Under the pieces are notes generated by a model. The model saw only the letters and a list, made by a program, of their open reading frames with translations, ran no database searches and was not told where the DNA came from. This document shows, piece after piece, positions 34,066 to 50,955 of a stretch of 64,000 bases of DNA. Made by a program: the position numbers and the translations under genes. Source of the DNA: Agathobacter sp. (GTDB lineage: Bacteria > Bacillota > Clostridia > Lachnospirales > Lachnospiraceae); NCBI GenBank assembly GCA_017409825.1, contig JAFQRZ010000012.1:62001-126000 (forward strand), read 5' to 3'. The first letter of the stretch is position 1. Each line of letters begins with the position of its first letter.

Positions 34066-34089
34066 CCCTAGTCACTTATGTGACTAGGG
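34066..34089. terminator. Shared convergent terminator, overlaps the end of the 1200-aa gene
   Basis: CCCTAGTCAC (34066-34075), loop TTAT, GTGACTAGGG (34080-34089), with T-runs on both sides. The last codons and the TAG stop of the minus-strand gene (34068-34070) lie inside the stem. Confidence 0.82.
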
Positions 34090-37000
34090 AGTTTTTCTTT
34101 CATGCACTGAATCTCTTGTAAAGTAAAAAAATATGTTTCTCCCTCTGCACCTTCCTTTGAGAGTGTTTGCTGAAGCAAATTCCGATATTCTAAATTCAAT
34201 CTCCAAATAGAATTCTTTTCCAAACCACCTTTTTCGAAAGGAATCAAATCCCCTTTTTCATCTATAAAAAACTCCTCGCTAATAAAACGCACATAATTCT
34301 TTTTCCTACTTTTCCTCATGGACGTATCTGTCACAAAAACAGTGATTGTCTTCTCAACCACATTCCCAAAACGATCCGTTGCTTTGTACGTAATCTCAAC
34401 CTGGCTGTCTGTTGTCATATCCGTAAATGTCTTGGTGTTATAGTTCGTTACGATAACATCCTTTCCATTTACCAGTGTGCCATCCTCCCTGTCCACAGCC
34501 TTCACTTTCCTTAAAAGCTCTGCCTGTGTGATTTCACCGCTTTTCGCCTGCTCCAGAGTGAAATAACGGTTGCTTACGGAAAGCTCTGGATACTTATCCC
34601 ACCTTGCAGTCAGGCGTGTGTCTTTTTCTATCACTGTTTCTGTATCTGCCGCATACTCCATGTTCTCCTCTGATACCCATTTATCGAAAGAATGTCCGGA
34701 AAGCACTGGGGCTTTCTCCAGTCTAAACGTAGGAGCACGAAACGCTCCTGATGCATTATAATAACGTTCCCCGGTCTGCGAATCGTATCCAACTGCGGAA
34801 CCGTTGGTATCATAGCTTAAGGTAACATCCGATACGTACAGGGCATACAGTGTGACACTGTCTCTTGTGCTATAAGTTGCACCTGTTGCGGTATCTGCAC
34901 TGGCACCTGCTTCTGTTGCACTGCTCCATCCGGTATTGGTCCATCCATCGAAGCTTCCACTTTCCGAAATAACGAAATCTGCTGTCTGGGTGTTATTGTA
35001 AATGGTTTTCTGCAGGACGGTCTGAATCGTATTATCGCCGTCCCGTTCCACCAGTGTTACTGAAATATCCTTTTTAAATACTGCATAAAGCATCACCGGC
35101 TCTGTTCCCATGGTAAGCGAAGTAAGTCCTGTTGTCGCAGAGGCATCCGTGTTCCAGCCAACGAAAGTAAATCCGTCCCCTTTTTCTGCCGGTGTACTTA
35201 AATCGATGGCTGCGTTATAGTTTACCTCTGCCGATTCTTTTCCTGCACTGCTTCCACCGTTGGTCCAGTAGTCGTAGGTTACGGTATAGGAATTGATATT
35301 CCATACAGCATACAGATTAATAACTGCACCGTCTGCTGTAGCAAGGTTTGAGACGGACTGCTTGTCCGTATAGATTACTGCTCCATCTGCTGAAGCTGCC
35401 CAGCCTTTAAAACTGTAGCCGGTTCTTTCATAAAGATTGGAGGAAAGCTTAACAGAAGTGTCGTATGTTGCGACAGTATCTGCCATTGTTCCGTTTCCAC
35501 CATTTGCATTGTACCTGATGGTATAGGTATTTGCAGTCCATTTTGCATACAGGGTGGTACTTTCTGTAAATGTTGTCTTTGTGGAAAGAATATTCCCTGC
35601 CGCATCGATATACCGCGTTCCAGCTCCACACTTTTCCGTATAATATCCGCCAAAGGTATAGCCTGTTTTTACAGGAACTGTAATCTTTGAAACAGCTGTG
35701 GTGCAGGTATCCGCTGTGAAGTTTCCACTGCCATACTTCTGGTAAAATACCTTTGTTCCAGGAAGTTCGGCACCCTGGCTGTCCAGTTTGATTTCATATA
35801 CATTTGCCTTCCACTGTGCGTACAGGGTCTGGTTTCCAACTATGGTATAAATGTCGCCTGCACTTACTGTTGTTCCTGTGCCGTTTGCTGCAGTGTTCCA
35901 TCCAGTGAAGGTATATCCAGTCCGGTTTGGTGTCGGAAATGCTGGATAATAACTGCTGTATGTTACCGACTGTGAGGCTGGTGTTACCGTTCCGCCGTTG
36001 GCATTATATATAACGGTATAAGTGTTTGGACGGTAATACGCATTGTATGTATTTGCTGAAGTGACTGTTTTCCCTGCATCCTTGCTGCTTGCAGAATAGC
36101 CGGCTGGTGGTGTCACGTATGCCGGGGTAAAGGTATTTCCTGATGCTATCAGGGAATTCGTCGTTTCAAACAGGATCCATTTTCCACTGACAGGATTGTA
36201 TTTATAATGCTTTACCGTCTGATTGTATTCCGGCTTTACGATGTTTTCCGGCTGTGTGTCACCAGCATTGCCGCCTTTATAAAGCACCGTGTAGTTTCCT
36301 GCATTGTCATAGACCACCAGCTGATAGGAATACGCATGCCCGTTTACAAAGGATGAAATATCTGTTGCCGGTAGAGTGTAACGGTACACCAGGGTATTCA
36401 TATCCTTGGTATAGGTCAGCGGGTAAAACTTATAAACCGAAGGCGATGCCGTTATCCATACCAGAAGATACACTTCGTCGTTGCTGATATTTCCGGTTGC
36501 TGTGTAGGAAGGATAATCGTGGTTTTCAACATCCGACACTTCAATGGAATACACGGCATATAGTGTCACGTCTCCTGCAGGCATCGAATACGACGACAAA
36601 GGAATACGTGCAGTACTGGACGTGCTCCAGCCGATAAAGGTATAACCTGGTTTGCTGGCGGTTGGACTTAAATCGACTGCAGCTCCATACGCAAGTGTTT
36701 TACCTGTCGCAGATGTGGTACCGCCGTTGGCGTTATATGTCACCGTGTACGTATTCGCAGCCCACTGTGCTGTAAATGTTACATCACTAAACAGGGAAAC
36801 ATAAAACTTATTGTCGCTCATCCATGAATTAAGCTGTGTGGTAGAGTATGTCTTCCCGTGCATCCAGCTATCCGCTGAGGTGTTTCCGGATGATACTTTC
36901 CATCCCTGAAAGGTGTAACCCGTTTTCGTTGGATTCGATAAAGGGGTTATTCCTTCCGTTCCATACCTGGTGACTGTTTTTGTGTCCGTGCCATTATTTG

Positions 37001-37670
37001 CATCGATTGTGTATGTAAATGACTTGGCACAAATATGCATGCTCGGAAATAAAGCTTCCAGTTCCGCTGCTGTAATATCTGGTGATTCTACTCCGTTTGA
37101 GAAATCTCCATTTTCTACATATCGGAACAGAAAAACAATATATTTTACCCTGCTTGCACGTGTGCCTCCGGTATAGGATGCATAATCGGTGCCATCCGTA
37201 GTCACCCCTACGGTATACGTCTGGGAAGGTTTCAACCAGTTGGAGGAAAACAGAAGGCTTCCAGCATCATCGAATTCCCATATCCCGTATGCAACGGAGT
37301 CATTTTTGATGGCACTTTCACCGCCATCTTTTCCTGCAACCAAATTTATTTTGGTATTGTATGCGGTTTTAAATGCTTTCTGATAGGTGATTCGATTTGA
37401 TACCTCATTTGCTACCTCTGCCCATGTATACCCCGTTCTAATCGCCAGCCCCATATTTATACCCTTGGTTTTCATGTCTGTTATGGAAGAATTGCTGGCA
37501 TTTGTCAAATCCACTGCATTTGCCTTAAGTGTAGACCATGAAAGCAGACCGCTTGGTGTCGCCGCATACACTGCCACCGGCTCCGCCAGTGTCTGGAACA
37601 CCATCAGAAGGCACAGGAAAAATGCCAGAATATTCTTAAATGTGAATTTCGGTTTCTTTTTTGTTTTCAT
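34068..37670 (-). CDS. Large secreted Listeria-Bacteroides-repeat (Flg_new) protein, 1200 aa
   Basis: N-terminal basic region and hydrophobic signal (ILAFFLCLLMVFQTLAEPVAVYA, cleaved near residue 36). From about residue 215 to 1015 it holds roughly eight beta-grasp InlB-B/Flg_new repeats of the form YTVTYNANGGT...GYTFIGWSTS...LYAVY. Then comes an Ig/cadherin-like module (about 1020-1115, ending VEKTITVFVTDTS) and an 80-residue charged tail with no LPXTG or membrane anchor. It is likely secreted, perhaps held at the surface by partners or through the Tad-like machine. Start 37670 behind GGAGGGGAGG, 18 bases after the 885-aa gene. Base composition looks richer in C and G than the flanks, suggesting transfer. 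Confidence 0.85.
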   Translation of the reverse strand: MKTKKKPKFTFKNILAFFLCLLMVFQTLAEPVAVYAATPSGLLSWSTLKANAVDLTNASNSSITDMKTKGINMGLAIRTGYTWAEVANEVSNRITYQKAFKTAYNTKINLVAGKDGGESAIKNDSVAYGIWEFDDAGSLLFSSNWLKPSQTYTVGVTTDGTDYASYTGGTRASRVKYIVFLFRYVENGDFSNGVESPDITAAELEALFPSMHICAKSFTYTIDANNGTDTKTVTRYGTEGITPLSNPTKTGYTFQGWKVSSGNTSADSWMHGKTYSTTQLNSWMSDNKFYVSLFSDVTFTAQWAANTYTVTYNANGGTTSATGKTLAYGAAVDLSPTASKPGYTFIGWSTSSTARIPLSSYSMPAGDVTLYAVYSIEVSDVENHDYPSYTATGNISNDEVYLLVWITASPSVYKFYPLTYTKDMNTLVYRYTLPATDISSFVNGHAYSYQLVVYDNAGNYTVLYKGGNAGDTQPENIVKPEYNQTVKHYKYNPVSGKWILFETTNSLIASGNTFTPAYVTPPAGYSASSKDAGKTVTSANTYNAYYRPNTYTVIYNANGGTVTPASQSVTYSSYYPAFPTPNRTGYTFTGWNTAANGTGTTVSAGDIYTIVGNQTLYAQWKANVYEIKLDSQGAELPGTKVFYQKYGSGNFTADTCTTAVSKITVPVKTGYTFGGYYTEKCGAGTRYIDAAGNILSTKTTFTESTTLYAKWTANTYTIRYNANGGNGTMADTVATYDTSVKLSSNLYERTGYSFKGWAASADGAVIYTDKQSVSNLATADGAVINLYAVWNINSYTVTYDYWTNGGSSAGKESAEVNYNAAIDLSTPAEKGDGFTFVGWNTDASATTGLTSLTMGTEPVMLYAVFKKDISVTLVERDGDNTIQTVLQKTIYNNTQTADFVISESGSFDGWTNTGWSSATEAGASADTATGATYSTRDSVTLYALYVSDVTLSYDTNGSAVGYDSQTGERYYNASGAFRAPTFRLEKAPVLSGHSFDKWVSEENMEYAADTETVIEKDTRLTARWDKYPELSVSNRYFTLEQAKSGEITQAELLRKVKAVDREDGTLVNGKDVIVTNYNTKTFTDMTTDSQVEITYKATDRFGNVVEKTITVFVTDTSMRKSRKKNYVRFISEEFFIDEKGDLIPFEKGGLEKNSIWRLNLEYRNLLQQTLSKEGAEGETYFFTLQEIQCMKEKLPSHISD

Positions 37671-37688: not shown

Positions 37689-40346
37689 CTAATTACTGAT
37701 GTTGGCGTCGGTGACATCGACGATAATCGTAAAGCTGTTTCCGCTCTGGGTGAACTGTACCACGGTGCCGGTCGGTTTCGTGATGTCGTAGTAGACGGTA
37801 CTGTAGCTTTCTGCTGTATTTCCGTTTAAGTCAACGGCTACTGCCTTATAACGGGTAACGCCCTGTGAGGTGTTTGTAAAGGCAAGCTCCTTTGACTTCG
37901 CACCGTTTAGATTCGATGCTGTTGCCACAGCAGTCAGGCTTCCGTCTTCACCAATTCTGTAGATAGTTAAGCTTTTAAGCCCTACACCATCATCCGACGC
38001 GGATGCGGTCAGTGTAGTCTGCTGGTTCGTCCACTTATCATTTCCGCTTAAACTTACGTCTGGGGCATAGTTGTCTACCCAGTAAGCATACAGCTGTGTC
38101 CCCGTAGTGCTCTTATATACGATGTCGGAATACATAAATTCATTGTAAAACCTGGTTCCGGTTCCGTTCTTTCCTGTGTAATATCCCTTAAATTCAAAGC
38201 CGTACCGTGTTGGTGCCTGAATTCTAGGAACAACTTCAGCCTCTGCTCCAGGCACCAGTCTGTCGTAGGTTGCCGTCACTGAATCTGTGCCGCCGGTTCC
38301 ACCTTCTTTGTTTAAGATAAGCGGATAGGTCTTTGCGAGCCATTTCGCAAACAGGGTAGAATCCTGCACGAAATAAGTGCTGTCAAATCCAAATGATCCA
38401 TTTGTATCAATCAGAGGCGTTCCTGAACCGAACATATCAGCGAAATAGCCTTTGAAATCATATCCGGTACGTGCCGGAATGCTTATCCTGTCCAGAATGG
38501 CTGTAAACATATTGTTGGTGTAGAAGTTTACACCATATTTCTCATAGAAATAGCCTGTTCCACCGCTGCCTTCCTGCGGATTTAAGGTAATCTGTGCTGT
38601 TACTGGTTCCCATACCGCGTAAAGGTCGATAACTGCTCCGTTTACGGATGTGATGTTTTTAACCGCTGCCTTGTCGGCATAAACCACTGCTCCGCCTTCG
38701 GTTCTTGCCCAGCCCATGAAGGTGTAACCACGTCTGGTATATACGTTTGGACGAAGCAGAGCATCCTTATCGTATGTAGCTGGTGTGTCCGCAAGGCCTG
38801 CATCCGGTATGCCTACGTGATAACGGATGGTATAGGTATTCGCTGTCCACTTTGCATAGATGGTTCTGTCCTGTTTGAATGTTGTACTAGAAGCGGTAAT
38901 CGTTCCATTTCCATCAATGTGGCTTACTCCGCCGCCATTCTTCGCATCGAAATATCCGCCGAAGGTATAGCCTGTTTTCTGAGGCTTTGTAACGCCTGTA
39001 ATGGAAGATGTAGCATCTTCATCGGAATAGAATCCTTTTTCGTATCCTTCGTACATAATTCCACTGCCTGGTGTGTCTGCACCATCATCATCCAGTGAAA
39101 TCTCATACACATTTTTCTGCCATACTGCGTAAAGCGTTACCTTACCGCCATTGGCAGAGGTAAGGTTTTCTACTGTCTGCCCATCCGTAAAATCCACCGC
39201 TCCGTCCGGTGTTCTGGCCCATCCCATGAAGGTATAGCCGGTACGGGTAAAGGTATTCTTTGCAAGTGCCTGTTCCTTATCATAGGTATGTGTGACCGTA
39301 TTCATTCTTCCGCTGCCACCATTGGCGTCATACTCTATGGTGTAGGTGTTTGGTTTCCAGTTGGCGTAAAGAACAATACCTCTGTTTCCCAATCCCACCG
39401 CTGGAAGAATTGCTCTCGGCATATATTTTCCTCCGGAAGCAAACGTTGTACCATCACTCTTTTTCCATTCTTTTCCTGGTTCAAGATGATACCCCGTTCT
39501 AAATAAATCTATACCATTCTTTCCTGTATCTGCCAGAGTCGCTTGCTGTAATACCCTGAAACTCTTCTTTTCCACAACACCTGATTTAAATAACATATCA
39601 GACAATACAGTTCCATTCTGTGTTATGCTTCCAGAGCTGTACCCTGCGGTCTGTGGCTTAGCTCCAGCACCGATGTTGTACATGATGTCGAGTTTGGGAT
39701 TATCTAATTTACTCTCTATTTTCTTATAACTTTCAAAATAATGCCCCCAAAAAATACTTTTTAAAGCATTCAGGTCGCTATCATTCTTTAATCGATAAAT
39801 GGTTCCCCATTTGGAGATACCACCATATCCATTCTCTGTTATCCCTCCATTGGGACTCTCTCCCTGTTTGGTAACCATAATAGCATCAATCTGTACATGA
39901 ATCAGCGACGCATCCAGTACATAGGTTGCATTATTAGGGTCGACTGCCTGTGCCAATCTGTACAATTCCTTATCCTCCACTGCGTACAAATCATACTGAT
40001 AGCCGCCAGCATTTACCTGGTCTACCATGGTTATAGAATCTCCGAATCTTTCTACTGCAAAAGACACCGAATGTCCATTTCCAGACAGGGTAATATCAAA
40101 TCCTACTGTTGCAAACTTTAAATTCGTACTCGAAGATGCAAGCTTTGCGTATGTGGCATAATAAACTGCACCATCCCAGGATTCTGAATGATAAGGCTCA
40201 CCTTTTAATGCAGTACTCTCATAAAACTCTTTTGCATTTGTATAGCTTGTGGCTGCCTGATAGTTTTCTTTCGAAACTATCACGGAACAAACACTTATAA
40301 ATAAGAACAGTAGGAAAATAATCCATTTCTTCTTTTCCAATTCCAT
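37689..40346 (-). CDS. Secreted Listeria-Bacteroides-repeat (Flg_new) protein, 885 aa
   Basis: N-terminal membrane/signal segment (WIIFLLFLFISVCSVIVS), an unrecognised 240-residue N-domain, then about six Flg_new repeats (for example NTYTIEYDANGGSGRMNTV, GYTFMGWARTPDGAVDFTDG). A Big-type Ig module follows (APDVSLSGNDKWTNQQTTLTASASDDGVGLKSLTIYR). The end, ITKPTGTVVQFTQSGNSFTIIVDVTDANISN, stops in what looks like the first strands of a further Ig module, so the C-terminus may be truncated. No sorting motif. It forms a two-gene unit with the 1200-aa gene. Start 40346 with AAGGAG six bases upstream. Confidence 0.85.
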   Translation of the reverse strand: MELEKKKWIIFLLFLFISVCSVIVSKENYQAATSYTNAKEFYESTALKGEPYHSESWDGAVYYATYAKLASSSTNLKFATVGFDITLSGNGHSVSFAVERFGDSITMVDQVNAGGYQYDLYAVEDKELYRLAQAVDPNNATYVLDASLIHVQIDAIMVTKQGESPNGGITENGYGGISKWGTIYRLKNDSDLNALKSIFWGHYFESYKKIESKLDNPKLDIMYNIGAGAKPQTAGYSSGSITQNGTVLSDMLFKSGVVEKKSFRVLQQATLADTGKNGIDLFRTGYHLEPGKEWKKSDGTTFASGGKYMPRAILPAVGLGNRGIVLYANWKPNTYTIEYDANGGSGRMNTVTHTYDKEQALAKNTFTRTGYTFMGWARTPDGAVDFTDGQTVENLTSANGGKVTLYAVWQKNVYEISLDDDGADTPGSGIMYEGYEKGFYSDEDATSSITGVTKPQKTGYTFGGYFDAKNGGGVSHIDGNGTITASSTTFKQDRTIYAKWTANTYTIRYHVGIPDAGLADTPATYDKDALLRPNVYTRRGYTFMGWARTEGGAVVYADKAAVKNITSVNGAVIDLYAVWEPVTAQITLNPQEGSGGTGYFYEKYGVNFYTNNMFTAILDRISIPARTGYDFKGYFADMFGSGTPLIDTNGSFGFDSTYFVQDSTLFAKWLAKTYPLILNKEGGTGGTDSVTATYDRLVPGAEAEVVPRIQAPTRYGFEFKGYYTGKNGTGTRFYNEFMYSDIVYKSTTGTQLYAYWVDNYAPDVSLSGNDKWTNQQTTLTASASDDGVGLKSLTIYRIGEDGSLTAVATASNLNGAKSKELAFTNTSQGVTRYKAVAVDLNGNTAESYSTVYYDITKPTGTVVQFTQSGNSFTIIVDVTDANISN

Positions 40347-40373: not shown

Positions 40374-40400
40374 TAAAAAGCGTACCGAAATTCGGTACGC
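40374..40400 (-). terminator. Hairpin upstream of the repeat-protein genes
   Basis: GCGTACCGAA-A-TTCGGTACGC (40381-40400 with near-perfect symmetry); on the minus strand it is followed by TTTTTATATAC. It reads as a terminator isolating the 885/1200-aa genes from the toxin and pilus genes, though a perfect palindrome could also be an operator. Confidence 0.65.
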
Positions 40401-40420
40401 CTGAATTTTTAAGTTTTAGT

Positions 40421-40550
40421 TGATAAAACTTTAGCATTATGTTATTTTATAGATAAGAAAAGCACCCACTCCAAAGTGGATGCCTCGGTTAAGTGTTTAT
40501 GACCTTATGGTCACCGCCTATCCTGTTGGCAGACAGGATAGGCATTTTTA
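40421..40550 (+). ncRNA. Predicted antisense antitoxin RNA of a type I toxin-antitoxin locus
   Basis: Promoter TTGATA (40421-40426), 17 bases, TATTTT (40444-40449). The predicted RNA is about 95 bases from near 40456 and ends at the strong terminator GCCTATCCTG (40516-40525)/CAGGATAGGC (40534-40543) plus ATTTTTATT. It has no reading frame. It is antisense to the 3' untranslated part of the 35-aa toxin mRNA, as in TxpA/RatA and BsrG/SR4 (known arrangement). Confidence 0.6.
40463..40484 (-). terminator. Terminator of the toxin mRNA
   Basis: Minus strand GCATCCACT (40476-40484), loop TTGG, AGTGGGTGC (40463-40471), then TTTTCTT. It ends the 35-aa toxin message inside the antisense RNA region. 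Confidence 0.7.
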
Positions 40551-40553
40551 TTA

Positions 40554-40661
40554 CTATTTTCTCTTATCGAGAAAGGTAATAAGTGCGATTAATAAACCGC
40601 CAAAGGTGATTAACAATGTCAATACACCCAGGAAAACCATAATGATTTCATAATCGGTCAT
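40554..40661 (-). CDS. Putative holin-like toxin, 35 aa (type I toxin)
   Basis: 35 codons: MTDYEIIMVFLGVLTLLITF, then GGLLIALITFLDKRK. One membrane helix with a short acidic N-terminus and a basic C-terminus, the pattern of the small putative holin-like toxins (Fst/TxpA superfamily). ATG 40661 sits behind a strong GGGAGGTGG site. The 5' leader contains GCCTCCC (near 40708-40716), which can pair with that site, a known way of silencing such toxins until the mRNA is processed. Promoter TTGACC (40769-40774), 17 bases, TAATTT (40746-40751). The frame is below the usual length cut-off for gene calling. Confidence 0.7.
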   Translation of the reverse strand: MTDYEIIMVFLGVLTLLITFGGLLIALITFLDKRK

Positions 40662-40774: not shown

Positions 40775-42049
40775 CTAATAATCCCAATAGCCCTCATCGT
40801 CTTCGGTAATTAATTCCTGCACATCTTTTGCAATATACATATACCAATCATATCTTGAATCGATAAAACCACCGCTCATATTTGATGAATACAGCCCTTT
40901 ACTTTCAAGATACTCCGTTAAAATTTCGAATCCATGCTTTCCATTTACATAACCATCGCTATGAGTAAGTACAGCATAATCACCATCACCAAAATCAACC
41001 ACATTTCCATATCCAGCATCGATTACCATCTGCTCATAAGGCGAAATATCATGTTCATCCTCCGTAGGCACCCAGGTACTTGTATCCTGGTTGTTTGATG
41101 GATTCTTATCCGCCTCGGTATTTGTGGTATTTCCAGTGCTACCATTTCCCGAATTTGAATTATTTACAGTATTGCCAGTATTGCTGCTTGCTCCCCCATT
41201 GCCAGAGGTATTCCCATTTCCTGTATTCCCTGGAGTAGAGTTGCCGGTATTATTCGTGGTACCGCCATTGCCGGCATTTGCATTTCCTGACTGAATACCA
41301 GGTGCAGCATCTTCTTTTACCGTAATCAGGAATGTTGCTTTGCTTTCATTACCCGCACGGTCTACGTAAGATACATGTACAAGCCACTCGTGCTTGTCGG
41401 CATCACGCAGCTCTAATTCACATACGATATTGTCGGCTGCGATTTTGCCATCTACATTGTCGGTAATTTCATACTCAGACTTGTCTACGTCTGGTTCTGC
41501 AGATAGTTTTTCCTTACTTACCATAACTACCTTGTCTGCAGCTTCTTCGATTTTCGCACCGGTCTTATCAAGGACAAGCACGATTTCTTCATACGCTGCA
41601 TTTCCATGGGCATCCATGATTTCCATTACTGCACGGTATACACCTTCTTCGGTAGGAATTTCTTCATTGCCGATAGACTTTAATTCATCCTCTGTGGCCA
41701 TGGTGTTAATCTTGTCTGTGAGGCTTTTTAAGGCCTTTTCATCCATTAAGCCAAGATTTCCACTACGTTCGAAGCGAATAAGCTTTATGGTGCATTCTGA
41801 CGCGTCACGGATACTTTCAAACATACCTGTGAAGTCTGCATTGGCTGCATCGTTGGTAAATACATATCTATGTGCAAAGTCCGCTTTTGGAGCGGTGGTG
41901 TCGACTACAGTCTCCTCTGTATCTAGCTGATTATACGCATTCTTATCTTTTCCCGCACCTATCCAAAATGCAATAATGCTTACGATCAAAAGGACGGCAA
42001 GAACTATCGCTATAATTATGGTGTTTTTTCTTATTTTCATTAAATTCAT
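40775..42049 (-). CDS. Membrane-anchored protein with Gly/Asn/Thr linker, Tad-like cluster
   Basis: 424 residues. N-terminal anchor helix (about 9-31). Residues 50-245 look like Ig-type or bacterial adhesin-like domains (TIKLIRFERSGNLG, HEWLVHVSYVDRAGNESKATFLITV). Then comes a low-complexity tract of about 70 residues (258-325) of Gly, Asn, Thr and Ser, of the kind used as a wall-spanning spacer, and a 95-residue acidic C-terminal domain (YEQMVIDAGYGNVVDFGDGDYAV). No enzyme motif. Last gene of the Tad-like operon. Start 42049 with GGAG seven bases upstream. Possibly a surface-exposed tip or adhesin (inference). Confidence 0.75.
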   Translation of the reverse strand: MNLMKIRKNTIIIAIVLAVLLIVSIIAFWIGAGKDKNAYNQLDTEETVVDTTAPKADFAHRYVFTNDAANADFTGMFESIRDASECTIKLIRFERSGNLGLMDEKALKSLTDKINTMATEDELKSIGNEEIPTEEGVYRAVMEIMDAHGNAAYEEIVLVLDKTGAKIEEAADKVVMVSKEKLSAEPDVDKSEYEITDNVDGKIAADNIVCELELRDADKHEWLVHVSYVDRAGNESKATFLITVKEDAAPGIQSGNANAGNGGTTNNTGNSTPGNTGNGNTSGNGGASSNTGNTVNNSNSGNGSTGNTTNTEADKNPSNNQDTSTWVPTEDEHDISPYEQMVIDAGYGNVVDFGDGDYAVLTHSDGYVNGKHGFEILTEYLESKGLYSSNMSGGFIDSRYDWYMYIAKDVQELITEDDEGYWDY

Positions 42050-42174
42050 TTTGTTTCTCCATTTTCTTTTCTCTATTATATTGCATTCTATCCCTTTTTA
42101 CAATCCTCCTATTCGATAGCATTTTCTTTTCGTACCTTCTATTCACTTGTCAATGTGCGTTTATTTTCCCTAAA

Positions 42175-42564
42175 TTATTCCGATTCTATTTCCTCATATT
42201 CTTCTAGCAAAACGGTTCTGACACACGAAACACTGCCCTTTGTTCCAATTGGATGATTCCAGGTCAGTTTCGCTTCTACCGAAAGCAGTCCTTTTTCCAT
42301 ATCTGCCTCAAGGAATGTCACGGTGAGGTCGGATGCTGAATTTATCTGCACTGCCAGAGACTGCAAAAACATCGACTTCCATTCCTCCTCTGACTGTGGT
42401 CCGCCCTCCTCATATAAAAGACTCGTCATGCATTGTTCCATAGAAGACTTCAAGGCATTATTTAGCTCCACCTGTCTTATGCTTCTTCCGTGGATGGTAA
42501 ATCCGATTAGGAGGATAAGAAGCCCTATTATAGCTGCATAGAATGCCATCAACATATTTTTCAT
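42175..42564 (-). CDS. Membrane-anchored pseudopilin-like protein, 129 aa
   Basis: MKNMLMAFYAAIIGLLILLIGFTIHG is a class III-type single N-terminal helix without a prepilin cleavage motif, followed by a soluble domain (VELNNALKSSMEQCMTSLLY...SDLTVTFLEADMEKGLLSVEAKLTW). Overall design is like TadE/TadF minor pilins, but sequence similarity is not evident. Start at ATG 42564 six bases after AGGAG; a GTG directly before it is also in frame. Ten bases after the 188-aa gene. Confidence 0.7.
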   Translation of the reverse strand: MKNMLMAFYAAIIGLLILLIGFTIHGRSIRQVELNNALKSSMEQCMTSLLYEEGGPQSEEEWKSMFLQSLAVQINSASDLTVTFLEADMEKGLLSVEAKLTWNHPIGTKGSVSCVRTVLLEEYEEIESE

Positions 42565-42573
42565 CACAAACTC

Positions 42574-43140
42574 CTAACTGTGTTCCACAGGAAGCTGAAA
42601 TACATACGTATGCTCCCCGCCGTTCGTTCCACAAATTTTTACATATACGGTATATATTCCACCCTGAAAGCAGCACAAAATATCCTGTTCCTTCTCATAT
42701 ACAAATGGCACTAGAATCTCTTCCATGCTGGCGATATCGTCTGCATTCAAAAACATCAGCACGGAATCCCCTGCCTGATTCTGTATATCTGTAAGATAGA
42801 TGGTAAATCCGCTTTCTTCACTTCCGTTTACCACAGAACCATCCTCCATCGTTACATCAAACAGGCTTTTCATTGCAATATAACTGCCTGCATTCTGTGT
42901 TCCACCTGTGTATGTCATAACTGGCACATAATCCGATACGGCACCTTCCACATAGGAAAGTCCTTCATTTTTTAGATTTCCCGTATCAAGCACAGGAGAA
43001 AAAACTTCCCCTGCACCTTCAAATACATTGTCTTTTCCGCGTAGTCCCGTAGAAAAAAACATCCATATAGCAAACGAGACGCAGCCTAACATGATAATCA
43101 ACGGATAAAACTGCTTTACTATATTCTTTATCAGTTCCAT
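42574..43140 (-). CDS. Membrane-anchored extracellular protein, 188 aa, Tad-like cluster
   Basis: One N-terminal helix (YPLIIMLGCVSFAIWMFFSTG, about 12-32), then a soluble domain (IYLTDIQNQAGDSVLMFLNADDI, GIYTVYVKICGTNGGEHTYVFQLP) of probable beta structure. Not recognised. It lies 24 bases after the 49-aa gene and has AGGAG at a good distance from ATG 43140. Its place between TadE-like proteins suggests a minor pilin or pilus-associated protein (inference). Confidence 0.7.
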   Translation of the reverse strand: MELIKNIVKQFYPLIIMLGCVSFAIWMFFSTGLRGKDNVFEGAGEVFSPVLDTGNLKNEGLSYVEGAVSDYVPVMTYTGGTQNAGSYIAMKSLFDVTMEDGSVVNGSEESGFTIYLTDIQNQAGDSVLMFLNADDIASMEEILVPFVYEKEQDILCCFQGGIYTVYVKICGTNGGEHTYVFQLPVEHS

Positions 43141-43164
43141 ACATTACTCCTATCCTTATTGTTC

Positions 43165-43314
43165 TTATATCGTACCTGCCAGAAGTTCCAAAAGGCTTTG
43201 AAACAATACAAATGTGCCCCCGAAAAAAAGGCCCCACATAAGCCCCATTCCAGCAGTAGTACCGATACCTTCCTCTGCTACATCTATTAGAATTGATTCA
43301 ATTAATTCGCTCAT
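43165..43314 (-). CDS. Small membrane protein, 49 aa, Tad-like cluster
   Basis: A short frame: MSELIESILIDVAEEGIGTT, then AGMGLMWGLFFGGTFVLFQS and LLELLAGTI. One glycine-rich membrane helix with helix-packing GxxxG-like spacing. ATG 43314 has AGAGGTGG six bases upstream. It begins 11 bases after the 37-aa gene and ends 24 bases before the 188-aa gene, so it is embedded in the operon. Small size, tight spacing and good ribosome sites support a real gene; the function is unknown, with a pilin-like or platform accessory role possible. Confidence 0.65.
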   Translation of the reverse strand: MSELIESILIDVAEEGIGTTAGMGLMWGLFFGGTFVLFQSLLELLAGTI

Positions 43315-43324
43315 CTGCCACCTC

Positions 43325-43438
43325 TTAAAAACTCACTCGCATAAGAAGCCTGAAAAAGAAAAGAAAAATTCCTCCGTAGAGTACACCCCACAGGACATAC
43401 ATCATCAGTTCTTTGATTGCTTTGATAATTGTTTCCAT
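43325..43438 (-). CDS. Small membrane protein, 37 aa, Tad-like cluster
   Basis: METIIKAIKELMMYVLWGVL, then YGGIFLFFFRLLMRVSF: one hydrophobic helix (about 12-31) with a basic end. ATG 43438 follows AGGAGC by five bases, and the gene sits 18 bases after the TadE-like gene and 10 before the 49-aa gene. It resembles the 49-aa protein in design (short N-terminal amphipathic helix, W-G-L-F-F-G core), so the two may be diverged paralogues. Function unknown. Confidence 0.62.
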   Translation of the reverse strand: METIIKAIKELMMYVLWGVLYGGIFLFFFRLLMRVSF

Positions 43439-43456
43439 TCGCTGCTCCTTATGTCA

Positions 43457-43795
43457 CTATATAATCTTTGTCTGTATCTTTTGTTGCTTTAATCCAAACA
43501 GCTCAATTTCAAAATAATATGTCAGCTTTATCTGTGCGTAGTTTTTTACTCCTGCTTTTGATGCTCTTTGTACATCCACTTCAAGAATATATCCATTTGC
43601 CTCTGCCTCCTCTTGGCATTCTCTGATAACAGCCTCGTTATAGTTGCTTTCCACGATAACCTTAGAAATAGACTCCATGTAATTATCTGCCGCTACAGCT
43701 CTAGAAAAACCAACCGTAACTCCAACACCACTCCCTACCATAACGATTGCTGCCAGCACGCCGACAAAGGTCTTAAACACAATATCCAAATGCAT
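43457..43795 (-). CDS. TadE-like minor pilin (DUF4320-like)
   Basis: 112 residues: N-terminal helix (FKTFVGVLAAIVMVGSGVGVTVGFSRAV) and a soluble part with two cysteine-free beta stretches and ECQEEAEANGYILEVDV, KNYAQIKLTYYFEIELFGLKQ. This fits the DUF4320/TadE-like proteins of Clostridial Tad clusters: residues A-x-x-x-x-V-ES..., no glycine-glutamate prepilin site. I chose ATG 43795 because AAGGAGG is eight bases upstream; the seven extra codons of the longer frame overlap the platform gene. Likely a pseudopilin. Confidence 0.75.
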   Translation of the reverse strand: MHLDIVFKTFVGVLAAIVMVGSGVGVTVGFSRAVAADNYMESISKVIVESNYNEAVIRECQEEAEANGYILEVDVQRASKAGVKNYAQIKLTYYFEIELFGLKQQKIQTKII

Positions 43796-43805
43796 ATTTT
43801 CCTCC

Positions 43806-45215
43806 TTACCTTCCAATCAGGTCTACAATGCCGTTGATAGAGGTCACAATTGCAATGACGAGATACCCCATGCAGCCAAAGCCTGCACACAGAAACGGAA
43901 TCCATGTAAAAGACTTCATGCTGTCCCTAAGCATCATGCTGTCGCGCTCGGCTTTCTCAAGATTTTTGATATTTTTCTCGATAACCACATCCATTACCTC
44001 AGCATCACGATTTGCACCGACAGCAAGCGAATATAGCTTATGCATAATCTCCCTAATCTGCTGGTTATTAAAATCACGAAGGAATGACATATAAGCCTCA
44101 GGGTCATGCGGTTTCATCAATAGCATTTCGCTCATACGTACCAGCTCTCCCTTTAAGACCACAGGTGCTGTTTCAATGGACTTTTCGATAGCCCCTTCCA
44201 CACTTTCTCGTTGCAAAAGCAACATGACATCAAAGAGCCATTTGGGAAATGCTTTTGAAATCTCAGAACGCATGGTGTAAATGCTGCTCCAATAAATAAA
44301 TGTGTGCACATGAAATCCTGCGAATATAAGACATACAGAAATAGCCAGCGTAATCCAGCTAGGCTTGATATAGAAAAATAAGGCAGATGCCACGACAGAA
44401 AGAATTGCAAAAGAACGATATTTTTTTCGTTCCTTTTTGGCATCATAATTTTCGAAATAATCGAAATATGCTTCCGCTTGTTCCAAACTCATTTCTTCCG
44501 ATTTGACTAATAAGCTCTGTGCTAAGCGCTTGTCCATAAATACATAATATATACAGAATCCAATCAATAGCACTGTGCTGATTATCTGTGTAGCAGGTAA
44601 AGTTACAATCTCCAAATCAGAGCTTCTCATGATATGAAGCATGATTACGCAAACCAGAAGAAAGAATGCATAAATAACTGCACCGATATTTCTTTCCCAT
44701 ACTCTCTTTATTCGGATGCTCTCTACGACTTGCTGCCATGCAGTACGCATACTCTCTAGAATCTTAAATTCTTTCTGGCATTCCCCACCTAATTCTTCTG
44801 CGTTCAAAAAGAAGGCATGCAGATTTCTTAGTTTCTCACAATCATAACGAGACTCTATATGAATGAGTGCTTCCATTTCCGCCCGTTTAATGTTCCACTT
44901 TCCAGCCTCTAGAATCTCGAATCCTTCGTCCAACGTCTCCCTCATAAGCCCATCCGAAAAACTGGTTGCAGTTTCTTCCAAAGACTGAATGACATCTTGG
45001 GTATAAATAAAAGACTGTGCCATCTGACTCATATATAAATTGACATCATGAAATCGATTGGTTTCGTAACGAAATTGTGCTTGATTACGCACTAGTTTGG
45101 GAACACAAAGCAGATAGGCTGCCACTACAACAAGCAGCAATATTAGATGCAATTCAAATAGAAAACCAAAGACCAGCGCAATCAGGAGTACGGTTCCATA
45201 ATATTTTTTCTCCAT
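43806..45215 (-). CDS. TadB/TadC-type (T2SS F) platform protein
   Basis: 469 residues. Inner-membrane platform with hydrophobic segments at about 8-35, 182-225, 268-310 and 435-465. It contains cytoplasmic helical domains typical of type II secretion F proteins (SQMAQSFIYTQDVIQSLEETATSFSDGL; KAFPKWLFDVMLLLQRESVEGAIEKSIETAPVVL). Instead of the usual TadB plus TadC pair only this one platform gene is present. The ATG overlaps the ATPase stop by one base (TAATG-type). It should work with the TadA-like ATPase to assemble or retract the filament. Confidence 0.85.
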   Translation of the reverse strand: MEKKYYGTVLLIALVFGFLFELHLILLLVVVAAYLLCVPKLVRNQAQFRYETNRFHDVNLYMSQMAQSFIYTQDVIQSLEETATSFSDGLMRETLDEGFEILEAGKWNIKRAEMEALIHIESRYDCEKLRNLHAFFLNAEELGGECQKEFKILESMRTAWQQVVESIRIKRVWERNIGAVIYAFFLLVCVIMLHIMRSSDLEIVTLPATQIISTVLLIGFCIYYVFMDKRLAQSLLVKSEEMSLEQAEAYFDYFENYDAKKERKKYRSFAILSVVASALFFYIKPSWITLAISVCLIFAGFHVHTFIYWSSIYTMRSEISKAFPKWLFDVMLLLQRESVEGAIEKSIETAPVVLKGELVRMSEMLLMKPHDPEAYMSFLRDFNNQQIREIMHKLYSLAVGANRDAEVMDVVIEKNIKNLEKAERDSMMLRDSMKSFTWIPFLCAGFGCMGYLVIAIVTSINGIVDLIGR

Positions 45216-46270
45216 TAGGCTCCACCTCCCAATTGCGTAAACATATCTACATCCAGCTCTGCTTCAATACGTTCCCTCGTTCTCACTGGAATTCTGTCTC
45301 TACAAATTTTCCCATTTTCAACTACAAGAACTGCCTCATTTCGCTCCTTGTCCCTTGAAAAAAAGCATACCTGATCGATATAACGGCGAATTTTACCTTC
45401 TGCATCTGCTCGCAATTTTAACAACACACTTATGTTTACATAGCTGTGAAGCGAATTTAACACACGTTCTGCCTCCTTCCCGCCATGCAGCATATTCACA
45501 CCACGGTCTGGAAACATACGAGCATCATTGGTATGTGTCGTAGTCATAATTGGGATACCATTTGACACACATTCTAGGAATGCTTCCATATCATTCCCAC
45601 CTCGGATTTCACCCATTATAATGCGTCTTGCATTCATACGAAGTGCTGTCTCCATCGGAGTTCTATAATTCCCGTCCGTAACCTTAAGCTCCGCACAAGA
45701 AGCCTCTGGATTTACAAGTGGATAATGTATCTCTGCCACATCTTCCATCGTAATGACTTTTTCATGCTTCGGAATTACTGATGCAAATAGCTTCAATCCT
45801 TCTGTTTTTCCTGCTGCAGGCAGTCCACAAAACACAATGCTTTCATGTGCTTTTACACAATTCTCCAGCATCGTCATGGTCGCTTCCTCACAATAGCCCT
45901 GTTCTAAGGCAAGACTTCTATTGATACGCAAGCCCCCATGGGACTTACGAATATTGACATTCGTAAGCCCACTTTTAGACTGGCTCTTATGCAAGCATGT
46001 GATACGAAGAGTTTCCGTATCCGCCATTGCTGTATGATCACTCGGATTAAAATTGCAGTTTACACTTTTGCCAACTAATGCAGAAAAATTCTCCCAATAG
46101 CTTTCATTTAGAATTGGATTTTTTAATTGCTTCGGAATCACTGACGCTTTCGACTGCCAGATGTTTCCACAGTTAAAATCCAAATCTGTTACATCCTCAT
46201 CCTCTAAATACTTCCAGATTTCTGGAAATGTTCTTCGGATATCTTCATCCTTTAATTTTAAAGTGCTCAA
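45215..46270 (-). CDS. tadA: TadA/CpaF-type assembly ATPase
   Basis: About 351 residues. Secretion ATPase of the Tad/VirB11 family: N-terminal domain, Walker A CGLPAAGKTEGLKLF, Asp box ITMEDVAEIHYPL, Walker B-like ARRIIMGEIRGGNDMEAF, and His box IPIMTTTHTND. It powers pilus assembly at the cytoplasmic membrane. I chose TTG 46270: it lies eight bases after AAGGAG. The in-frame ATG at 46291 (seven codons earlier) has no ribosome site, so it is the weaker option, although it is only three bases from the previous stop. Second gene of the Tad-like operon. Confidence 0.88.
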   Translation of the reverse strand: MSTLKLKDEDIRRTFPEIWKYLEDEDVTDLDFNCGNIWQSKASVIPKQLKNPILNESYWENFSALVGKSVNCNFNPSDHTAMADTETLRITCLHKSQSKSGLTNVNIRKSHGGLRINRSLALEQGYCEEATMTMLENCVKAHESIVFCGLPAAGKTEGLKLFASVIPKHEKVITMEDVAEIHYPLVNPEASCAELKVTDGNYRTPMETALRMNARRIIMGEIRGGNDMEAFLECVSNGIPIMTTTHTNDARMFPDRGVNMLHGGKEAERVLNSLHSYVNISVLLKLRADAEGKIRRYIDQVCFFSRDKERNEAVLVVENGKICRDRIPVRTRERIEAELDVDMFTQLGGGA

Positions 46271-46293
46271 CGTTTTCTCTCCTTCTTGCATTA

Positions 46294-46494
46294 CTACGAG
46301 GTCACGCCTAACAAACCGCTAATTTCAGCCATAATCTGATCCAAAACTGCATTTAACGACGTATCGAAAAATCCTCCTGATGTTACAAGTGGTGTTACGA
46401 TTGCGTAAATTCCTGCGCAGATGGCAAGTGCTAATAGGATTCCGTAAAAAATTTTTACGAATCCACTTCCGATTTCTGAACTTTCATTTGGCAT
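46294..46494 (-). CDS. Small hydrophobic protein, first gene of the Tad-like operon
   Basis: 66 residues: MPNESSEIGSG, a strong hydrophobic segment (FVKIFYGILLALAICAGIYAIVTPLV) and an amphipathic C-terminal half (AVLDQIMAEISGLLGVTS). It is in the place where Flp-type pilins are usually encoded, but has no G/E prepilin cleavage site and no Flp signature. It could be the main filament subunit or an assembly scaffold. ATG 46494 follows AAGGAGG by seven bases. The leader and promoter immediately precede it. Confidence 0.75.
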   Translation of the reverse strand: MPNESSEIGSGFVKIFYGILLALAICAGIYAIVTPLVTSGGFFDTSLNAVLDQIMAEISGLLGVTS

Positions 46495-46567: not shown

Positions 46568-46633
46568 GCTGACGAATTGTCAGCAAAAGAAAAAAGATAA
46601 TTGTAATTATAGCTACAAAGCCATTCTTGTAAA
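46568..46633 (-). promoter_or_regulatory. Promoter and leader hairpin of the Tad-like operon
   Basis: Minus strand TTTACA (46628-46633), 16 bases, TATAAT (46606-46611). The transcript would start near 46599 and carry a hairpin GCTGAC-GAATT-GTCAGC (46568-46584) in its roughly 105-base leader. The leader has no recognised riboswitch (no c-di-GMP-I core seen). Repeats of TGTATAAGG/ATACATAAGG flank it. Confidence 0.6.
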
Positions 46634-46724: not shown

Positions 46725-47726
46725 TTAAATATCCTTTTGAAGATGAACATGGATGCGTTTGCTCAATTCGTTCGCAATACGATCGTTTTCTTCGTTGCTT
46801 TCACGAATCTCTTCTACATGCTCCGTAATGAGTAATACACTGTTTGTAAACTCACCAACTGCATTTGCAGATTCCGTCGCTGCGGTACGAATAGAATCAA
46901 TCGTCTTCGTCGCTTCGTCCAACTGTGTTGCTAATGATTCTGCGATATACGCAAAATCCTGCATCTTGTCAAACATGATTTTGGAATCACCCTGATACTT
47001 GTGTCCAACCTCTACCAGTTCTGTATAGCTTCCTACGGTCTTGTCCTTCATGAATTCCACAACCTTATTGGCTTCTTCCGCTAACTGACTTACCGCATTC
47101 AATACTGTTTTCGAAATTTCGCTAATCTCACTTGCAGTAGCACTAGTCATAACAGAAAGCTTATTGATTTCATCTGCAACGATTGCAAAGCCTCTTCCTG
47201 CCTCTCCCGCATGAGCCGCTTCAATCGAAGCATTCAAAGCCAAAAGATTCGTCTGATCTGCAATCTCCATAATATCCTTAGTCAAGTCCAAAATACGCTC
47301 TGCTTTTTTTGATTCTTCAATCTTCTCTCGCATGGAAGCTTCCACCGCTTCTGCCATTGCCTGCACTTCACGGCGCTGTGCTTCGGAACGAGTCATAATA
47401 TCGTAAGCGGTATTATTGCTTTCCTGCGCGTAATCTTTCCCGTCCTGTGCCTCTTCGCTCATCTGGGTAAAAGACTCATCCATCTCCTCCATAGAATCCG
47501 AAATCTCGGTAATATTCGAAGACATCTCTTCCAAAGATGCTGTAAACTCTTCCATCACACTAGACATATTGGTAGTTTCCCCAGCTACCATGTCAATGCG
47601 TTCCGCTACATCATCAATGGAATGTGCGAGACTATCTGCACTCGTCTGCACATCTGCAAATACCTCTTTCACTTTTTCGCGTTCTTCCTGCATCGCTGCA
47701 TCTTTTCTCTTGTGAAACAAACTCAT
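46725..47726 (-). CDS. Methyl-accepting chemotaxis protein without membrane segments
   Basis: 333 residues. It starts [20 protein letters not shown] and is a long coiled coil with the signalling hairpin [20 protein letters not shown] plus [11 protein letters not shown] in the middle, flanked by typical methylation-helix heptads. No transmembrane helix and no recognisable sensor domain, so it is a cytosolic receptor reading an internal cue or docking to another protein. ATG 47726 has GAGGTGG nine bases upstream; the longer frame (to 47786) has none. Promoter TTTACG-N17-TATAAT lies at 47764-47792. No che or flagellar genes are in the window. Confidence 0.9.
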
Positions 47727-47763
47727 AAAAACCACCTCTGTATTACAAACAATACCTAGATTT

Positions 47764-47792
47764 ATTATAGCAAAGTAGCTTTTCAACGTAAA
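47764..47792 (-). promoter_or_regulatory. MCP gene promoter
   Basis: Minus strand TTTACG (47787-47792), 17 bases, TATAAT (47764-47769), lying just before and overlapping the end of the upstream C-GCAxxG-C-C gene (stop at 47799). Confidence 0.55.
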
Positions 47793-47798
47793 GGGGTT

Positions 47799-48257
47799 TT
47801 ATTGCACACAATGCAATTCTTTTAGATATTCTTCCAATATCTCTGCTGCACTACCGACTTTTTCTACACAAGGACGTTTTTTATAATATTCTTCGGTACG
47901 CTTTTCTGGTGTCGCCGCTTCTTTTTTTACATCAAGTCCAAGCAGCTCGCGACAAATAATGGAGCCATTATCTGCTTCATAGCGTCGTGCAAGCTCCTGA
48001 ATATGCTCATAAAGCTCTTTCTTCCCTTCATAATCCCCTGGCTCGTTATATCCTTTGATAAAGCCTAATACCATAAACATTCCTGATACACTTCCGCACA
48101 CCTCACGGAGACGGCCCATTCCTCCACCAAATGGAGATGAAATTTTAAGTGCTGTATCCACATCAATTGTCAGCATATCTTCGAATGCTAAAATCATACA
48201 CTGGGCACAGTTGTACCCATCTAGGAAACTCTGCATCGCTTTTTCTTTTCGTGTCAT
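47799..48257 (-). CDS. C-GCAxxG-C-C family protein
   Basis: 152 residues. Cysteine positions fit the family name: DGYNCAQCM, then GGGMGRLREVCGSVSGMFMVLG, SIICRELLG, and PCVEKVGSAAEIL near the end. Proteins of this kind (PF09719 group) are thought to bind a metal or redox centre; no function is proven. ATG 48257 follows AGGGAG by seven bases. Single gene next to the MCP. Confidence 0.88.
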   Translation of the reverse strand: MTRKEKAMQSFLDGYNCAQCMILAFEDMLTIDVDTALKISSPFGGGMGRLREVCGSVSGMFMVLGFIKGYNEPGDYEGKKELYEHIQELARRYEADNGSIICRELLGLDVKKEAATPEKRTEEYYKKRPCVEKVGSAAEILEEYLKELHCVQ

Positions 48258-48282
48258 ATTTTTCTCCCTCTCGTATTGATTC

Positions 48283-48309
48283 GAAAATGGGCATGAATTT
48301 TCATGCCCA
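48283..48309 (-). terminator. Terminator of the large MCP gene
   Basis: Minus strand TGGGCATGAA (48300-48309), loop AA, TTCATGCCCA (48288-48297), then TTTTC. Confidence 0.78.
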
Positions 48310-48329
48310 CTCTCATTGTCTTACTATAA

Positions 48330-50093: not shown

Positions 50094-50214
50094 ACTCCAA
50101 CCTCTTTTCTCAAGTAAAGAGTCATACTACATATAGTGTAATTCTAGCAGAAAGTTAATATTTTCACAATAGGTTGTATCTACTTTTTCATTGTGCACGA
50201 TATATCTTTTGTCC

Positions 50215-50955
50215 TCATAGTTGCTTTCTCAGCATTAATAAAATTTTCTTTTCTAAACGTGAAACTGCTACCTGATTCATCCCCAAAACTTTCGCACTTT
50301 CACTCTGTGTTTTCCCCTCCATATACCGAAGCTCTATCAGTCGCCTGTCCCTCTCTTCTAAACCATCTAGCATTTGCACCACAGTAATTCGATTAATTAG
50401 TTCCGTTTCATTTTTCCTAGAATCCTCTAACTGGTCTGCCAACATCATCTGATTTCCATCATTCCCGCTACCAATCGGCTGATAAATGGATTCCACCTCC
50501 GTGGTAGCCTCCATCGCCATCAAGATTTCATCCGGCAACAAACCCGTTGCCGTCACGAGTTCTTCCATGGTGGGGTCGCAGTTATTCATTTTCTTCAATT
50601 CTTCCTTTACTGCTGCAATTTTCCTTGCATTGTCCTTGATTTGCCGGCTCACGTGAATCATTCCATCATCCCGCATAAACCGACGAATTTCTCCAATTAT
50701 CATGGGAACCGCATACGTGGAAAAAGATAGTTCCCGATTTAAATCGAATTTATCGATGGCTTTTAGCAACCCGATTACCCCTATCTGGAACAAATCCTCC
50801 TGCTCATAGCCCCGACTCGCAAATCTCTTTAGGACCATGTAAACCAGCCCTGTATTAGCAATTACTAAGGCATCTCGTTCTCCTTTATCTCCTGCCTGTG
50901 CTTTTCGGATGGAGCATCTCCAACCGTCCTCCTTGGTAGAGAGATTACTGCTCAC
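50215..50955 (-). CDS. sigF: Sporulation sigma factor SigF (SpoIIAC)
   Basis: 246 residues. Sigma-70 regions 2 (YEQEDLFQIGVIGLLKAIDK, FSTYAVPMIIGEIRRFMRDD), 3 and 4 (LEERDRRLIELRYMEGKTQS, VSRLEKKILLML). The first forespore-specific sigma factor, held inactive by SpoIIAB. No ATG precedes residue 44; GTG 50955, preceded by GAGGAGG, is the best start, with TTG 50967 as an alternative. It overlaps spoIIAB by 11 bases or more. Third gene of the spoIIA operon. Confidence 0.95.
   Translation of the reverse strand: MSSNLSTKEDGWRCSIRKAQAGDKGERDALVIANTGLVYMVLKRFASRGYEQEDLFQIGVIGLLKAIDKFDLNRELSFSTYAVPMIIGEIRRFMRDDGMIHVSRQIKDNARKIAAVKEELKKMNNCDPTMEELVTATGLLPDEILMAMEATTEVESIYQPIGSGNDGNQMMLADQLEDSRKNETELINRITVVQMLDGLEERDRRLIELRYMEGKTQSESAKVLGMNQVAVSRLEKKILLMLRKQL

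Follow-up and report, generated by a model that had tools for sequence, protein, structure and literature searches.

Can a filament of the Tad kind be assembled from subunits that never carry a leader peptide? In the portions of three papers that deal with this point, the prepilin peptidase ranks as a core or ancestral component of type IV filaments, and minor pilins are considered functional only once processed (PMC10191384, PMC6668835, PMC12075869). The question is raised by an operon in a 64,000-nucleotide stretch of Agathobacter sp. DNA, called the window here (assembly GCA_017409825.1, contig JAFQRZ010000012.1, positions 62,001 to 126,000), which is part of contig C4 in a draft assembly of 36 contigs and 2.80 Mb. 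With a probability of roughly 60%, we propose that this operon encodes a leaderless Tad-like type IV filament of a monoderm bacterium that presents adhesins lacking a sortase signal, both the filament and its function being read from the genes. Assembly without leader processing appears well supported by sequence for the family of systems to which the operon belongs, and that system, as judged from its proteins, is a variant of the Tad kind related to a plasmid module that has no name.

Nine consecutive open reading frames of 66, 358, 469, 112, 37, 49, 188, 129 and 424 amino acids (aa) occupy the minus strand from 40775 to 46494, each preceded by a ribosome-binding-site match of at least four bases; the nine genes described in an earlier note on this DNA are confirmed. 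Adjacent genes are 2-24 bases apart, except that 125 bases precede the 424-aa gene; the ATPase and platform reading frames share one base. A promoter was also said to head the operon; a site with 11 of 12 matches does precede the 66-aa gene, but promoter-like matches in the window are no commoner than chance (17 versus 19.1 +/- 5.0 in shuffles). Terminator-like hairpins lie at 40378-40543, past the end of the 424-aa gene, and past the nine reading frames the gene cluster reaches 34068, taking in a large exported protein of 885 aa and another of 1200 aa, which carry Flg_new/List_Bact repeats. The parts are as follows.

46606..46633, minus strand: promoter-like site, TTTACA-16-TATAAT, preceding the 66-aa gene
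46294..46494, minus strand: 66-aa small pilin candidate, conserved in loci L106 and L107, putative major subunit by position, with an extension MPNESSEIGSG ahead of FVKIFYG
45215..46291, minus strand: TadA/CpaF-like ATPase of a distinct clade
43806..45215, minus strand: platform protein, 469 aa, with a TadB-like N-terminal half and a TadC-like C-terminal half in a single chain
43457..43795, minus strand: 112-aa putative TadE-like minor subunit (family p111), ATG at 43795, no leader seen
43325..43438, minus strand: 37-aa pilin-like membrane protein, assigned to family p35 from its place and size
43165..43314, minus strand: 49-aa pilin-like membrane protein, assigned to family p48 from its place and size
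42574..43140, minus strand: 188-aa pilin-like protein with an ectodomain (family p155)
42175..42564, minus strand: 129-aa second TadE-like protein (family p200)
40775..42049, minus strand: 424-aa membrane-anchored accessory protein, found only in Agathobacter
37689..40346, minus strand: 885-aa exported surface protein with Flg_new repeats and no C-terminal RFIS domain
34068..37670, minus strand: 1200-aa exported surface protein, putative displayed adhesin
34071..34304, minus strand: conserved C-terminal 'RFIS' domain of the 1200-aa protein

The engine of the operon, a T2SSE ATPase and one 469-aa platform protein, had been recognised as minimally Tad-like, and this held. Only the ATPase among the nine proteins has a Pfam match above cut-off (T2SSE, E 1.7e-14), placing it with the TadA/CpaF-type ATPases of Tad or type IVc pili; compared with solved structures, the ATPase profile matched CpaF (E 5e-30) but also VirB11 (E 4e-32). 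A search of 299 genomes of the Lachnospiraceae with the window ATPase returned 37 genomes at E <=1.8e-21, followed by a gap to 1.0e-15, from which point upward the matches are frames of about 400 aa that resemble ordinary TadA. Three of the 37 genomes (G103, G224 and G252) have two copies of the system each. Besides the window this yielded 39 loci, with an ATPase gene called in 36; the other three (L060, L079 and L080) were left out of the counts of gene order and motif. In a midpoint-rooted tree of 41 ATPases, in which many inner forks are open, the 37 loci and two metagenome-assembled genomes of Agathobacter sp. are separated with full support from two canonical TadA proteins. The window ATPase shares 88% and 73% identity with its counterparts in the two Agathobacter genomes, and together the three form a long branch inside the family (2.22 changes per column). 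Outside the Lachnospiraceae, a full-length platform was found in two genomes (G625 and G393) of a class-wide draw of 391, and in a phylum-wide draw of 398 the sole full-length platform was the window's own. A further set of named loci, the best 80 of 242, comes mostly from Roseburia, Agathobacter and other Lachnospiraceae; 79 of the 80 were used in motif counts, in partial overlap with the 37 loci (L108 is L042).

The platform had been described as a single TadB/C protein. One protein is indeed present, and profile halves refine the description: the N-terminal half matches canonical TadB (E 7.5e-6) and the C-terminal half canonical TadC (E 2.4e-9), with one case of each, so that the platform of TadB and TadC known from Tad or type IVc pili occurs here in one chain, which we read as a TadB-TadC fusion or possibly an unsplit form. 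Comparison of the platform with single canonical proteins by hhalign gave nothing useful, and solved structures gave no convincing match for it.

The relatives keep a characteristic gene order: a protein of ~55 aa, the ATPase, the platform (393-540 aa), proteins of ~111, ~35, ~48, ~155 and ~110-220 aa, and often one of 570-1850 aa. Some loci have the ~111-aa gene in a later place or a small gene uncalled. Immediately ahead of the ATPase, 34 of 37 loci encode a protein shorter than 70 aa. Three size classes of gene (28-41, 43-56 and 128-192 aa) all follow the platform in 23 of the 36 more distant loci, by a count of size alone to which chance may contribute a few, and 34 of the 36 have a gene of 100-126 aa. 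In the two Agathobacter genomes recognisably the same proteins run in the same order from the 66-aa through the 129-aa one, with a 430- or 421-aa gene where the window has its 424-aa gene. The operon is therefore confirmed as real and conserved, and its small reading frames, whose lack of conservation was to have told against the original proposal, are conserved with it. The 66-, 37- and 49-aa proteins are linked to the distant families through position, length and alignment by eye, the profile score not being significant, and single-sequence searches found no homologue of the 424-aa or the 188-aa protein in the distant loci. The 424-aa protein is lineage-specific. Two short proteins are TadE-like in layout by eye and have no Pfam TadE match. 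The 188- and 129-aa proteins look like further subunits, which widens the proposed set of 66-, 49- and 37-aa candidates. In L043 the ATPase gene follows a side-by-side pair of genes for 56-aa small pilins, just before position 9930, whose profile scores are equal.

Evidence on leader processing comes from the N-termini of these proteins. In the relatives, the 55-, 35-, 48- and 155-aa proteins mostly open with an almost constant stretch of nine residues, M-K-x-I-x-E-E-Y-G (M(K)xIxEEYG), and a membrane helix follows immediately. A strict motif, E(x)[YH]G near the start, was found in 80 of 219 operon proteins below 240 aa versus 1 of 297 other genes in the 37 loci, and in 169 of 452 operon proteins versus 2 of 485 others in the 79 named loci, in sets that overlap and with Fisher tests that ignore kinship. 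At least one strict-motif protein occurs in 34 of 37 loci and in 68 of the 79 named loci, and the motif G is residue 9 in 72 of the 80 proteins. The EHG form is shared by all three proteins of two sister loci, a result reached in 1 of 10000 shuffles; the loci are close kin and this may be a single event. Among the 80 strict-motif proteins, 39 have K as their second residue, next to which methionine aminopeptidase is expected to spare the start Met; the Met should therefore be retained. A looser pattern picks out 102 proteins; 71 of them have no ATG, GTG or TTG from the upstream in-frame stop to the called start, which leaves no place for a hidden leader, and such an upstream start codon is present in the other 31. 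In processed Flp pilins, position +5 is E or D and position +6 is Y, as given in the section of PMC3244431 on this motif. Setting the Y of the family motif to +6 leaves two residues ahead of +1, and these proteins therefore look as if they are made in finished form. The cleavable leader of an Flp pilin is thus missing from a family most of which has EYG, in agreement with the original proposal; most subunits have no recognisable class III leader. The description 'without canonical pilin' is too strong: the N-terminus found across the family resembles that of an Flp pilin after processing, and the product of the first gene looks like an Flp pilin devoid of a leader.

The window itself is a poor example of this family: none of its four pilin-like proteins has the family motif, and its 66-aa protein might bear a short leader that is cut off. 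The window and both its relatives belong to the loci without any strict-motif protein, the 37-, 49- and 188-aa proteins of the window also being devoid of EYG. The N-terminus MPNESSEIGSG-FVKIFYG of the 66-aa protein is nearly identical in both Agathobacter genomes. A hypothetical cut after Gly11 would put Y at +6 and G at +7, as in Flp, with F at +5. The simplest reading would be that all four pilin-like proteins changed along the long branch of the ATPase tree, and a cleavable leader on the 66-aa protein is possible within that branch.

Where a peptidase might come from was addressed at the level of whole genomes. The locus has no dedicated TadV of the kind that marks Tad or type IVc systems, as the original description held for the window, and the search for a prepilin peptidase elsewhere in the draft genome, recommended at the time, returned two A24 peptidases, neither of them on the window's contig. 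The genome has three such machines: the window operon; a type IVa-like locus on C5 that encodes two T2SSE ATPases, a pilin and a PilD-like peptidase; and a clostridial Tad operon on C11 with its own TadA, two T2SSF proteins, an Flp1-like pilin (Pfam E 4.2e-13), TadV, a TadE-like protein and an FHA protein. An Flp/TadV pair elsewhere in the genome had been named as a possible refutation. The pair does exist on C11, but inside a complete Tad operon, and nothing assigns it to the window system, although its TadV may act in trans. The C11 operon, a canonical type IVc system, shares with the window operon an ATPase, a T2SSF platform, a small pilin and a TadE-like protein, and differs in having TadV, the FHA protein, two platform genes and a pilin whose leader ends in G with E at +5. 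It lies near a 472-aa flagellin gene and a FliS gene (L011:3037-13685). Among the 37 Lachnospiraceae genomes and the two outside the family, none has the system without an A24 peptidase. No such gene is near the operon: peptidase and operon share a contig in three genomes, more than 0.8 Mb apart, and lie on different contigs of the draft assemblies in the others. Since every genome has an A24 peptidase, genome content did not separate the hypotheses on processing in trans. Two described systems resemble the window operon in part. The Gram-positive tad-like loci of Imam et al. 2011 likewise have no protein with an apparent prepilin signal motif, but they contain homologues of tadV, tadZ and rcpC, none of which was recognised in the window operon (comparison based on the pertinent passages of PMC3244431). 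MSH loci also lack a peptidase of their own; they differ in that Denise et al., where they discuss these loci, suggest that another system's peptidase may be used (PMC6668835).

Beyond the nine reading frames, the large protein with a conserved C-terminal domain downstream is a partner that the earlier note missed. The 1200-aa protein ends in a domain of ~80 aa, RFIS...GGL..S.W...EY..LL, that is common to large proteins of other loci. An RFIS profile matched 30 of 299 Lachnospiraceae genomes, 29 of the 37 with the system versus 1 of the 262 without it (Fisher p 6e-32), though the 16 sequences behind the profile come from these very loci, which favours the figure of 29 of 37, and the genomes are not independent. 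The sole RFIS genome without the system, G001, is 74% complete, and in six genomes (G038, G083, G103, G110, G122 and G143) RFIS matches lie off the operon contig; this near-absence elsewhere and the off-contig matches argue for a functional tie to the system. LPxT[GA] was absent from the last 60 residues of all 42 large proteins chosen by an RFIS-like pattern, a choice made in overlapping sets. Ordinary N-terminal signal sequences were seen by eye on the large proteins. Among seven chromosomal large proteins scanned, three have Flg_new repeats, one Flg_new_2 and one ChW repeats, and one of those with a repeat match also has a thioester domain (L076, E 2.7e-7). Solved structures gave no convincing match for the RFIS domain. 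The 885-aa protein of the window matches large proteins of L059, L043 and L047 but ends without the RFIS domain, which the next gene has.

The closest relatives that we found on annotated records are, as their proteins rank in profile searches, modules on pLS20-like and pHT-beta conjugative plasmids, adjoining large adhesins. The Lachnospiraceae ATPase and platform profiles rank plasmid proteins first among 285 targets. The ATPase profile gave E values of 9e-68, 4e-67 and 3.6e-55 for the plasmid ATPases, with the genome's own TadA at 2.1e-38; a joint clade of plasmid and Lachnospiraceae ATPases apart from TadA has support of 87/80, which is suggestive only. The platform profile placed five plasmid platform proteins first (E 8e-8 to 2.9e-4), a homology that links the two systems, and the sixth in seventh rank (0.0046), behind a VirB2-like protein. 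Matches to the TadE-like families are weak and mixed with background: for p111 the pHT-beta protein came first (E 3.9e-5), while a background protein at 0.0012 outranked the other two plasmid proteins (0.03), and for p200 the pLS20-like protein came first (3.5e-4) with background at 0.0013. The window platform itself found no match on plasmids. For a Clostridium tyrobutyricum ATPase (L102, on the same contig as L110), the 15 best plasmid matches listed are all on Enterococcus plasmids (E 9e-42 to 2e-43), in a plasmid ATPase search that kept 5000 records.

On the Enterococcus plasmids and on a Bacillus subtilis natto plasmid whose annotation led us to call it pLS20-like, two platform proteins and a TadE-like protein of ~120 aa come after the ATPase, membrane proteins of 47-53 aa without a leader lie nearby, and a large adhesin is upstream. 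The modules are those of pHT-beta (Enterococcus faecium, conjugative), the pLS20-like plasmid (natto, conjugative) and pEIDB1 (E. innesii, typed non-mobilizable). With the Lachnospiraceae system they share a TadA/VirB11-like ATPase, platform homology, a protein of TadE-like type and a small leaderless membrane protein; they differ in having separate TadB and TadC genes, no EYG motif and linkage to VirD4-like genes. Their adhesins are of the thioester/SpaA type, that of the natto plasmid being annotated as a thioester domain protein and that of pHT-beta giving a thioester match below the Pfam cut-off (E 8e-4), and the RFIS domain was not seen in them by eye. No A24 peptidase was found on the four plasmids searched, pZB18 included. 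Among 72,556 plasmid records, 140 contain the pHT-beta TadC-like protein: 50 from Bacillus, 45 from Listeria, 31 from Enterococcus and 14 from others. Loci L186, L188, L189 and L190 are Bacillus or Enterococcus plasmids on which a Tad-like module adjoins a large adhesin and no prepilin peptidase is present. A conjugation locus of C. sordellii, considered as a candidate relative, was dropped, a text search of PMC5770547 having found none of six tad- and pilus-related words. Searches of open-access literature with limited terms, in listings of at most 5 to 20 titles and in passages of the papers, showed us no description of the Lachnospiraceae system and no naming of the plasmid module as Tad-like.

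In the mechanism that we favor, the subunits would insert in the membrane with the N-terminus inside and the start Met retained, and the ATPase and platform would build the filament without a prepilin peptidase. The EYG segment would serve as the assembly signal in place of the processed Flp N-terminus, with its E at +5 and Y at +6, and the large RFIS-domain proteins, having no sortase signal, would dock on the filament or its tip through that domain as adhesins. Several observations weigh against this proposal. At least one A24 peptidase is encoded elsewhere in 37 of 37 Lachnospiraceae genomes with the system and in two of two outside the family, and the extension of the window's 66-aa protein ends in G just ahead of F-V-K-I-F-Y-G. 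The kinship to pilins is hard to read from profiles: Pfam Flp_Fap matched four of 34 members of the 55-aa family at a best E of 0.01, no better than unrelated families, and hhalign found no match between this family and the genome's own Flp1-like pilin. An iterated profile uniting the small families extends to the membrane segment of the 424-aa protein and omits the window's 66-aa protein at E 0.01; such iterated profiles cover three of six families, recruit membrane segments of unlike proteins and lend weak support only. T2SSF matched seven of 37 platforms (best E 1.2e-4), while two unrelated families reach 9e-5 with one member each. Eight of 37 genomes with the system have no RFIS match, and the origin of the RFIS profile belongs with these points. 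Comparison of the 55-aa family with single canonical proteins by hhalign also gave nothing useful. A search of 60 Lachnospiraceae genomes with PF04964 gave two weak matches only, and this model is therefore no yardstick for clostridial pilins.

One challenge to assembly without processing is that the subunits are cut in trans by a TadV or PilD of other loci, the short N-terminal segments being minimal leaders. The peptidase kept in every genome, the borrowing suggested for MSH loci and the G-S-G ahead of F...Y(+6)G(+7) in the 66-aa protein speak for it; against it stand the mere two residues before +1 in the family if Y is +6, the 71 of 102 genes without room for a longer leader and the position of the 66-aa extension on a derived long branch, and we consider it unlikely. 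Rather unlikely, too, is a pseudopilus-like machine in the cell wall that exports or anchors the RFIS proteins and forms no long filament. Such a machine would suit the strong co-occurrence with a single large exported protein family and the several subunits almost without a head, but the large proteins have ordinary signal sequences by eye, so that a monoderm needs no second export step for them, and Tad engines normally build filaments.

A role as a DNA-transfer accessory, as on the related conjugative plasmids, where the modules adjoin VirD4-like genes, is very improbable. One of the 40 chromosomal loci (L070) has an 830-aa VirD4-like protein (E 1.3e-11) five genes ahead of the ATPase, but no VirD4 relative was found at E 1e-3 in the other 39, the window included, among 770 called proteins from loci of at most 20 kb each (26 kb for the window locus), in a search that recovered both plasmid controls and did not cover relaxases. 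Scarcely credible is an ordinary Tad locus with chance small reading frames. These are common by chance in six frames, but conserved order, ribosome-binding sites and a shared N-terminus oppose the idea, and the contrast in strict-motif counts between operon proteins and other genes (80/219 versus 1/297) refutes it in the main.

If the leaderless filament is real, leader cleavage is not essential for filament assembly, a simpler system becomes available for study, and common gut bacteria (Roseburia, Agathobacter, Lachnobacterium) would have a new surface organelle with adhesins. A wider reading, which we consider less likely than not, is a type IV filament branch whose subunits are all translated in finished form with no peptidase used, which would present large sortase-less adhesins and serve gut Lachnospiraceae as well as, on conjugative plasmids of Bacillus, Enterococcus and probably Listeria, mating contact. 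Gram-positive type IV secretion systems seem not to develop pili, according to the pLS20 authors, who in the passage concerned leave open how the sortase-independent pLS20 adhesin stays on the cell (PMC8092201). The plasmid module offers a testable explanation for that anchoring; on the wider reading these plasmids would build pili after all, and the anchoring of the pLS20 thioester adhesin would be explained.

Some neighbouring features of the window were also recorded. Between the 424- and 885-aa genes, a 35-aa Hol_Tox protein (PF16935, E 3e-5) with hairpins alongside (40378-40661) looks like a type I toxin-antitoxin element, and no gene is called at this position in L107. Upstream of the operon, 46725-51436 encodes a methyl-accepting chemotaxis protein, a second one by sequence and an HATPase_c_2 protein, and genes of similar sequence lie upstream in L107. 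Farther away, a lysine riboswitch occupies 10929-11099 on the minus strand (95.5 bits).

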